DNA of 64,000 nucleotides. Origin: Rhodopseudomonas sp. BR0M22 (GTDB lineage Bacteria > Pseudomonadota > Alphaproteobacteria > Rhizobiales > Xanthobacteraceae). Positions 773-5,457 of this stretch are shown here, piece by piece. A program made the position numbers and the translations under genes. The notes beneath the pieces were generated by a model that was not told the origin of the DNA, made no database searches, and saw only the letters and a program-made list of their open reading frames with translations. How positions within the stretch are numbered: the stretch's first letter is position 1; each line of letters starts with the position of its first letter. The stretch is from NCBI RefSeq assembly GCF_010907035.1, contig NZ_QUMK01000013.1:1-64000 (forward strand), written 5' to 3'.

Positions 773-4102
<3,330 letters not shown>

Positions 4103-4137: not shown

Positions 4138-4165
4138 AAAAAAAGGGCGCGCAGCCGCGCGTCCC
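4138..4165 (-). terminator. Intrinsic terminator downstream of the tRNA-like element
   Basis: Read on the minus strand this is a GC-rich stem (GGG plus CGCGC pairing with GCGCG plus CCC, one bulged A, loop GGCT) followed by seven T residues (4138-4144). It lies 110 bases past the 3' CCA of the tRNA-shaped element and just before carB, so it would separate that transcript from carB. Confidence 0.7.
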
Positions 4166-4274
4166 TCAGGTCTTCAAGCGCCGGGCCGTCCCAGGCGCGC
4201 GGAGGTGTCTTAGACCAGTTTCCCGGACGGCGAAAGACCTTCGGCCGGCCGTCAACCACCAATTTGGTGGGTTT

Positions 4275-4349
4275 TGGAGGCCCAGCCTGGACTTGAACCA
4301 GGAAAAAGAGCGTTGCACCGCTCCTGCGTTGATCTTCCGCCACCGGGCC
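4275..4349 (-). tRNA. Aberrant tRNA-Cys(GCA)-like gene
   Basis: The 75-nt element has a full 7-bp acceptor stem (GGCCCGG with CTGGGCC, one G-T), U8, a 5-bp T-stem (CCTGG/CCAGG) with loop TTCAAGT, a T discriminator and encoded CCA, as in bacterial tRNA-Cys. The loop shows T-GCA-A, giving a cysteine anticodon. Two parts are abnormal. The D-arm is GCG/CGC with loop GAAGATCAA and lacks the G18-G19 pair. The anticodon hairpin is GAGCG-GTGCAA-CGCTC, a six-base loop, followed by five T residues, which also looks like an intrinsic terminator inside the tRNA. A normal tRNA-Cys is expected elsewhere in the genome. This could be a pseudogene, a non-translational tRNA or a regulatory mimic. The tRNA shape is clear; function is unknown. 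Confidence 0.6.
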
Positions 4350-4743
4350 GCGTGCATCTTGGCATTTCACGAAGGGGTGATCCAGTCATGAACCCGTCTA
4401 TCCTTAATGAAGACCGGGGGCGTGGCTGTCCTTGGTTTGCGGTTTCATGGCACCTCTGCGCCGCCTGGGCTGCCGCAGGGCAAATAGGCGTTCCCGACCA
4501 TTCAGCGCTCTGGCTCTCAGGCTCTGCGGAAGGAAGACCTGCTTTCCGCGGGAATTGACGGAACCGAGGCCCGCCAGCCAGGGGGCTGGTTCTTTGGCGT
4601 GGCAACAAACGGGACGGACAGGTCACGAACTCGTGTCCGTATCCCGGTAACAACCCGGCGGCGGCTGCGTATCTTGAAGCGCAACAGCCAGCTGGCCGCG
4701 GCGTTGTCGCTGCCGCCGCTTCCCAAAATCGCGAGGATCATCC
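4350..4743. other. Gap upstream of msrA; possible structured leader
   Basis: No convincing gene lies in these 394 bases; the ORFs here overlap in several frames and have no family signature. A bulged hairpin is visible close to msrA: GGGACGGAC (4611-4619) pairs with GTCCGTATCCC (4635-4645), with a small ACGA/TCGT stem inside. It could be part of the msrA leader. The promoter for the minus-strand tRNA-like element and that for msrA must both lie here, but no strong consensus boxes were seen. Confidence 0.3.
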
Positions 4744-5457
4744 ATGCGCGTATCGTTCGGTCGTCTTGCTCTCTGCGCTGCCACCGTTGGTGCGCTGGTC
4801 TGGTCGGTGGCGAGCGCGCCGTCCCGGGCCGCCGAGGAGGCGGTTGTGATTCCGCCGCCGAAGCTCGACGCCAAGGAGACTGGCGGCCTGCAGACTGCGG
4901 TCTTTGCCGGCGGCTGTTTCTGGGGCGTGCAGGGCGTGTTTCAGCATACCTCGGGCGTGGTGAATGCGTTGTCGGGCTATGCCGGCGGCAGCAGGGCGAG
5001 CGCGAGCTATCCGTTGGTCTCGACCGGAACGACAGGACATGCCGAGGCTGTCGAGGTCAAATACGATCCCAAGCGGATCTCCTACGGCAAGCTGCTGCAG
5101 ATCTACTTCTCAGTCGCGCACGATCCGACCCAGCTCGACCGCCAGGGCCCCGACACCGGGCCGCAATATCGCTCGGCGATTTTCACAACCAGCGACGAGC
5201 AGAAGCAGATCGCCGACGCCTATATTGCGCAGCTCGACGCTGCCAAGGTGTTCAGCGCGCCGATCGTCACCAAGGTCGGACCGTTGAAAGGGTTTTATGC
5301 CGCGGAGGCCTATCACCAGGATTACCTGACGCTGCACCCCAATCAGCCCTATATTGCGTACAACGACCTGCCGAAGATCGAGGCCCTGAAGAAGTTGTTT
5401 CCGACGGAGTATCTCGACAAGCCGACGCTGGTGAGCAGCGTCAAGGCGACCAACTGA
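4744..5457 (+). CDS. msrA: Peptide methionine (S)-S-oxide reductase, exported
   Basis: MsrA reduces the S-epimer of methionine sulfoxide in oxidised proteins. The 237-residue product begins with a basic, then hydrophobic leader ending near residue 30 ([12 protein letters not shown]), which predicts export to the periplasm or envelope. The catalytic motif GCFWG is at residues 57-61 with the nucleophile Cys58, followed by family blocks [32 protein letters not shown] and EAYHQDYL. It lies 29 bases before msrB in the same direction, so the two probably form an operon for repair of both sulfoxide epimers. Identification is secure; export is inferred from the leader. Confidence 0.95.

Follow-up and report, generated by a model that had tools for sequence, protein, structure and literature searches.

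A conserved tRNA-Cys-like RNA gene of Rhodopseudomonas and related bacteria that may serve outside the ribosome

Overview

A 64,000-nucleotide stretch of DNA from Rhodopseudomonas sp. BR0M22 (NZ_QUMK01000013.1, positions 1 to 64,000; hereafter, the window) carries a conserved RNA gene, here called TCL (tRNA-Cys-like RNA), at 4275-4349 on the minus strand, and of its being a conserved RNA gene we are nearly certain. To judge from its loops, TCL is very probably not a normal decoder, and the features that it has retained make it rather likely that it is charged with cysteine in its own family. We give about even chances to the overall reading that TCL is an RNA dedicated to a use outside the ribosome, non-decoding and probably charged with cysteine by the one CysRS of the cell; that it would serve there as a donor or a charge sensor is a proposal that we hold at slightly below even.

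In the proposed explanation, a tRNA-Cys gene would have become a dedicated small-RNA gene, specialised away from decoding and situated, in its own family, mostly just before carB. Its product would be a cloverleaf RNA whose CCA is encoded, whose anticodon stem is lengthened and whose loop mostly has six bases. Such an RNA would retain the features read by CysRS (GCA, U73 and the acceptor end), together with the acceptor/T half that is contacted by EF-Tu and other aminoacyl-tRNA-binding proteins, and would have lost what the ribosome and the elbow require, namely the seven-base loop and G18G19. The single CysRS would charge TCL with cysteine, and TCL would then deliver or report that cysteine outside the ribosome, a use modelled on the staphylococcal tRNA-Gly that gives glycine to cell-wall bridges.

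Structure and detection of the gene

A first-pass annotation, made from the letters of this DNA, had described a tRNA-Cys-shaped gene with a six-base anticodon loop at 4275-4349, and both ARAGORN and the minimum-energy cloverleaf agree with this description, as do the relatives and the covariation presented below. ARAGORN reported the 75-nt gene on the minus strand as the sole tRNA-like gene in the window, under the label 'tRNA-???, anticodon (gc)', and reported no tmRNA there. The cloverleaf is the minimum-energy fold of TCL, at -33.8 kcal/mol, a value equalled by 5 of 200 dinucleotide shuffles. It consists of a 7-bp acceptor (GGCCCGG/CUGGGCC), a 3-bp D stem (GCG/CGC), an anticodon stem with one G-U pair that closes the six-base loop GUGCAA, a short variable region and a T-arm (CCUGGUUCAAGUCCAGG) with a 5-bp stem; U73 and CCA are encoded in the gene itself. 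The T discriminator, CCA, acceptor and T-arm are thus intact and GCA is displayed, as had been claimed. The D-loop, GAAGAUCAA, was likewise correctly said to be without G18-G19: it holds none of the GG that canonical tRNA-Cys has, and in place of the canonical seven-base loop on a five-pair stem the window copy has six bases.

When 221 bases were scanned with the Rfam tRNA model, TCL scored 40.6 bits, above the gathering score of 29, and an Rfam gathering scan of the whole window gave no match to it. The fast filters of Rfam overlook TCL in the whole-window scan, and routine annotation may therefore miss such genes. Whole-genome tRNA searches of the same genome also missed TCL, and a search of that genome with RF00005 at a raised E-value returned the same 46 tRNAs, TCL not among them; a search of this kind therefore cannot list odd tRNAs. 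A T-arm pattern had 64 matches in this genome, none of them among the matches listed, which numbered 150 and came from Afipia (G209, 79), Bradyrhizobium (G133, 70) and Nitrobacter (G075, 1). A plasmid search for TCL gave no match.

A canonical tRNA-Cys(GCA) gene is present elsewhere in the genome, separate from TCL. The comparison with the standard gene that the first-pass annotation had proposed places it as the nearest of the 46 tRNAs to TCL, at 69% identity, and the same canonical sequence recurs with 100% identity in at least 33 genomes, this one included. One CysRS match was found in the genome, and exactly one CysRS lies above the cut-off in 15 of the 16 Rhodopseudomonas genomes, none being found in the draft G014; no special synthetase would thus be needed.

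Distribution across the genus, family and order

BLAST matches to TCL were found in all 16 Rhodopseudomonas genomes, which bears out the conservation in sister strains that the first-pass annotation had put forward for checking, and, at E <= 0.001, in 121 of 248 family genomes belonging to 24 of 47 genera. Among family genomes of at least 90% completeness and at most 5% contamination, 108 of 196 had a match. The weak matches within these family counts were only partly checked, and one of them spans just bases 47-75. The named genera are Rhodopseudomonas, Bradyrhizobium, Nitrobacter, Afipia, Tardiphaga, Pseudolabrys and Pseudorhodoplanes, with a few otherwise labelled records; the bacteria that keep TCL thus form a large group with soil-dwelling and photosynthetic members. 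An exact TCL pattern occurs in at least 119 stretches, 80 loci of which stand among the matches listed. This pattern fixes most acceptor and T-arm bases as well as U73, as does the script expression used for other families, so that conservation is overstated in copies found by pattern; copies found by BLAST are free of such bias. In one Nitrobacter locus (L067, 2021-2080), a degenerate second TCL copy was observed roughly 450 bases beyond the intact copy.

Over the order, the strict pattern was found in 9 of 397 genomes, every one of them in the own family, which contributes 19 of the 397. A looser DNA search matched 30 of the 397 genomes: 17 of 19 in the own family, 10 of 13 in a single genus (g81) of another family, f35, 1 of 20 in family f6 and 2 in a further family. 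The last two (L317 and L318) were rejected as relatives of TCL, being ordinary tRNA-Cys.

With the canonical gene of the window genome as query (E <= 1e-6), a canonical tRNA-Cys match was obtained in 229 of 248 family genomes and in 14 of the 16 genus genomes. G010 and G014 gave none at that threshold, and a separate canonical tRNA-Cys is therefore not established in these two.

Loop variation and covariation

From 159 loci we obtained 134 copies distinct over TCL plus 60 upstream bases and, from these, 113 distinct TCL sequences, of which 111 were parsed by a script that takes the best arm fold as stem and loop (L097 and L171 failed). GCA lies within the loop in 108 of the 111 own-family sequences and is absent in 3. 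By best arm fold, loops of six bases (83 sequences) outnumber those of seven (12), eight (10), five (4) and nine (2); GUGCAA leads with 48 sequences, followed by GUGCAU (10), AGUGCAUC (8), CCGCAAA (7) and CUGCAA (7). The D-loop GG is absent in 93 of the 111 and present in 18.

The covariation check of the arm pairings that the first-pass annotation had proposed turned out strongly positive. In an alignment of the 45 references, out of 79, that share one layout, which leaves out the type with a seven-base loop, 99.6% of cells in the anticodon and T stems are paired, and when the stem partners are slid by one base pairing falls to 52-60%. Cells in which both partners have changed number 43 in these stems, vs 10.1 in shuffles, and 0 of 500 shuffles did as well. 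Double changes were seen in five of the six anticodon-stem pairs; in this arm it is thus the pairing that is maintained and not the letters, in contrast to the canonical tRNA-Cys with its identical copies in many genomes. Together with the matches in all 16 genus genomes, covariation of this strength argues that the TCL structure is not due to chance. Across 123 sequences that include those of f35 and f6, U stands at position 73 in all 123 and changes in the acceptor and D stem are mostly compensated, and among TCL copies the acceptor, the T-arm and U73 are nearly invariant, the sampling behind each of these statements being partly biased.

U73 and GCA are recognition elements of CysRS according to PMC7609411. 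The retention of GCA in 108 of 111 sequences and of U73 throughout, along with a single CysRS, therefore makes charging with cysteine plausible, and the six-base loop, the lost G18G19 and the GNRA-type loop of the f35 relatives (see below) lend support to a non-translational role. TCL might instead be an unusual tRNA-Cys isoacceptor with a remaining role in ribosomal decoding, say in decoding that is prone to frameshifts or takes place under stress. GCA is kept, with U preceding it in the commonest loops, the acceptor/T half could bind EF-Tu, and the points that speak against TCL as a non-decoder fall here as well: the 18 sequences with the D-loop GG, the 12 with a seven-base loop and the number of copies that ARAGORN labels ordinary tRNA-Cys. 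Against such a role stand the 83 of 111 sequences whose six-base loop tops a lengthened stem, the 93 D-loops without GG, the f35 loop and the canonical tRNA-Cys match in 229 of the 248 family genomes, and we consider it improbable.

Upstream promoter-like signal

The upstream regions of the 134 copies were dereplicated at 75% identity to 94, and several positions are conserved among them: A-11 in 67, T-7 in 70, T-35 in 51, G-34 in 53, G-33 in 52 and a pyrimidine at -1 in 93. A-11 and T-7 both occur in exact register in 59 of the 94 and with one base of slip in 71, leaving 23 without a fit. In the window, the corresponding minus-strand elements are a -10-like CAAGAT at 4356..4361 (-12 to -7 from G1), containing the conserved A-11 and T-7, and a -35-like core TGG at 4382..4384 (-35 to -33), recognised by comparison of the upstream regions. 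Further upstream, a TTA[AG]GGTTAA-like element near -58 was found in 39 of 94 regions by a strict definition and in 55 by a loose one, the means in shuffles being 0.02 and 0.56; at its site the window has TTAAGGATAG (4398..4407, minus strand, -58 to -49), a candidate UP element or activator site. The spacer between the -35 and -10 elements contains a TCAC-N6-GTGA palindrome (4367..4380, minus strand), possibly an operator; palindromes of this type occur in 11 of 94 regions vs 0.125 in shuffles. All of these upstream-region shuffles preserve base composition only.

As a control, the 46 canonical tRNAs of the same genome have A-11 in 6, T-7 in 3 and the strict -58 element in none, and a pyrimidine at -1 is frequent in them too (34 of 46). 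A simple consensus promoter scan of the window found no promoter upstream of TCL. The conserved positions match those of a sigma-70 promoter with a predicted start at G1, and it is likely that TCL transcription is leaderless, beginning at G1. With such a start, no 5' leader would have to be removed by RNase P, and this would fit the lost elbow, since an RNA whose final 5' end is set at synthesis would not need RNase P.

The first-pass annotation had offered three readings of the gene. Of the non-translational Cys-tRNA, the sequence supports the non-translational part and makes the charging with cysteine plausible; the regulatory RNA is weighed below with the f35 relatives; and the decaying tRNA-Cys copy, for which the departures from the tRNA consensus could speak, is contradicted by the conservation across genera, the compensatory changes and the positioned promoter-like signal. 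Already at odds with the covariation, decay has in our estimation a close to negligible chance of being right.

The carB neighbourhood

In the window, TCL is flanked by carB, which encodes the large subunit of carbamoyl-phosphate synthase and lies downstream on the same strand (773..4102, minus), and by the divergent msrA (4744..5457, plus). Each of the 16 genus loci includes an MsrA match, which in L033 is confined to the locus edge. Where over 1 kb of downstream DNA is available, carB lies downstream and on the strand of TCL in 98 of 125 copies, and for 80 of these the distance is 159-426 nt; carA lies upstream in 30 of 134 copies, as far as the loci reach. The ORF caller used for neighbour genes keeps some spurious frames. 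Directly downstream of TCL, TTGACG (4250..4255, minus strand) is a candidate -35 element of a carB promoter, and GGTTGA[CT]G, just downstream of TCL, is common to the 16 aligned genus loci.

The carB leader contains a terminator-like hairpin followed by T7 (4138..4165, minus strand), some 40 nt ahead of where carB starts. The hairpin that the first-pass annotation had assigned to TCL as its own terminator at 4138 is real, and it belongs to carB: in 91 of 99 carB loci a hairpin with T5 or longer stands no more than 130 nt ahead of carB (none in eight), and it stays at carB in 15 loci where TCL is 752-1,935 nt away. We therefore rejected it as a TCL terminator. The stem GGACGCGC is present in 88 of the 91 carB hairpins, and for 90 of the 91 the first T of the run lies 19-51 nt ahead of the carB start. 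The internal terminator-like hairpin with TTTTT described for TCL itself was also discarded as a conserved element; T5 follows the anticodon arm in 12 of 16 genus loci and is found there in only 28 of 134 copies. Attenuation control of carB by its hairpin is possible. By eye, a CCGCGCG further upstream in the window could pair with the carB hairpin as an antiterminator.

These features would suit a role of TCL as a cis-acting control element within the carB leader, given the frequent carB downstream at short distance and a hairpin fit for attenuation. Some copies have no carB nearby (in the Afipia loci L086, L167 and L205 none lies within the locus DNA examined), the 15 loci with distant TCL keep the hairpin at carB, and in f35 the TCL-like gene follows gyrA. 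A role as carB leader is thus very unlikely, and the copies without a nearby carB indicate that the RNA probably acts in trans. By eye, no partner enzyme or transferase was seen beside TCL among the flanking proteins of seven loci.

Relatives in family f35 and other unusual tRNA-like genes

The copies from ten f35 genomes (L307-L316) have the acceptor, T-arm and U73 of TCL, and in their loop GGGAAC stands without GCA (nine loops by script, that of L315 by eye). A possible reading of GGGAAC is a GNRA-type tetraloop, GGAA, closed by a G-C pair. Their D stem differs from that of TCL, being mostly GGG/CCC and once GAG/CTC. The TTAA element is visible by eye upstream of 9 of the 10. Inverted repeats stand directly downstream, and T's can be seen in several of the 40-nt stretches that come after the gene. 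A gyrA-like frame precedes the gene in 10 of 10 loci and a coaD-like frame comes after it in 6 of 10, the two identities having been confirmed on one example each. We infer orthology of the f35 genes with TCL.

The missing GCA of the f35 copies is the main point against charging with cysteine, and it means that recognition by CysRS through the anticodon is not general; the 3 own-family sequences without GCA point the same way. It bears equally on the possibility that TCL is a regulatory RNA, such as a decoy or sensor, whose tRNA shape would give stability or protein binding (to CysRS, EF-Tu or an RNase) and would involve no amino-acid delivery. GGGAAC replaces GCA in f35 and yet the acceptor, the T-arm and the upstream element are kept, and the flanks of the seven loci inspected by eye showed no linked consumer enzyme, both of which speak for a regulatory RNA. 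If charging were irrelevant, the constant U73 and the GCA of 108 out of 111 sequences would be hard to explain, and we regard the regulatory RNA as an appreciable possibility, though on the unlikely side. The preferred reading, of an RNA charged in its own family and used outside the ribosome, draws some support from other odd tRNA-like genes that were encountered near TCL or in the same genera.

In Afipia, a tRNA-Ser-like gene with U73 follows a TCL copy on the same strand in at least 7 of 17 genomes (loci L086, L167, L177, L205, L258-L263 and L265), and among the matches listed four bases, UAAC or UAGC, cap its anticodon arm in 6 of 7, G230 being different. A second Ser-like gene, stand-alone, with G73 and a long variable arm, was found in at least 6 of 17 Afipia genomes (L278 and L280-L284); its anticodon arm is collapsed in five of the six, and L283 has a six-base loop. 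Two further Ser matches, L285 and L286, are canonical tRNA-Ser and were rejected as odd relatives. In Nitrobacter, 8 of 9 genomes have a tRNA-Gly-like gene near TCL, as does one genome of another genus (L065-L069, L071-L073 and L102 in all), on the opposite strand and within about 900 bases of TCL; ARAGORN gives it a six-base loop '(cc)' in eight loci and calls Gly(TCC) in L069. SerRS is not known to read the anticodon, and GlyRS reads CC. The Ser-like and Gly-like genes thus appear to share the logic of TCL, the synthetase identity being kept and the needs of decoding dropped.

Comparison with known systems

Several tRNAs and tRNA-like RNAs invite comparison. The closest model is the tRNA-Gly(UCC) of S. 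aureus, which feeds pentaglycine bridges and is described in PMC8007984 as charged by the cognate synthetase and poorly recognised by EF-Tu. Like it, TCL is an extra isoacceptor with deviant loops beside a canonical gene, and the loop changes of TCL would be expected to weaken its use by the ribosome or EF-Tu. Unlike it, TCL would carry a different amino acid, belongs to another phylum and locus, and has a rebuilt anticodon arm and a start that is probably G1.

The tRNAOther of B. cereus is a pseudo-tRNA said in PMC3399842 to be non-functional in translation; it has a Trp anticodon, flanks a pathogenicity island and is poorly lysylated in vitro. TCL is similarly tRNA-like and proposed to lie outside translation, unlike tRNAOther in residing mostly at carB over many genera and in keeping the Cys identity elements. 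In the window it is carB and msrA that flank TCL, and not the border of a genomic island; nor is TCL a tRNA pseudogene in the sense of a gene without maintained structure, given the covariation.

The selC* tRNA-Cys, as presented in PMC7609411, is linked to SelB* and differs from TCL, whose branch is 7/5 and whose variable region is short, by an 8/4 acceptor branch and a long variable arm. What it shares with TCL is a non-canonical form, U73 and, in part, GCA. As for tmRNA, a chargeable tRNA-like RNA without an anticodon (PMC2481249 and PMC3985003), the f35 copies resemble it in having no anticodon, their charging being putative, whereas TCL is a stand-alone RNA of 75 nt with no tag-coding, mRNA-like domain.

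Implications

No published description of TCL was found among the matches listed from open-licence full texts. The term tRNA is absent from the main text of PMC5082802 and both tRNA and carbamoyl from that of PMC8225791, and PMC8762117, which deals with cysteine-encoding systems, has no word starting with proteobacteria or Rhizobiales. Bradyrhizobium, Rhodopseudomonas, Nitrobacter and Afipia are heavily studied, and yet the literature searched contains no account of the gene.

Tentatively, and with considerable doubt, we suggest that the alphaproteobacteria studied here have a set of dedicated non-decoding aminoacyl-tRNA-like donors that would feed an undescribed non-ribosomal pathway, Cys-like across many genera of the family and Ser-like or Gly-like in some, each reduced to the features read by its synthetase and the Cys-like ones leaderless. 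The series that runs from a near-canonical tRNA-Cys through the six-base loop to the GNRA-type loop may serve as a natural experiment that separates charging from decoding. If leaderless, TCL would offer a bacterial case of a tRNA-like gene in which transcription, and not RNase P, sets the 5' end; if charged, it would point to an unknown tRNA-dependent use of cysteine.
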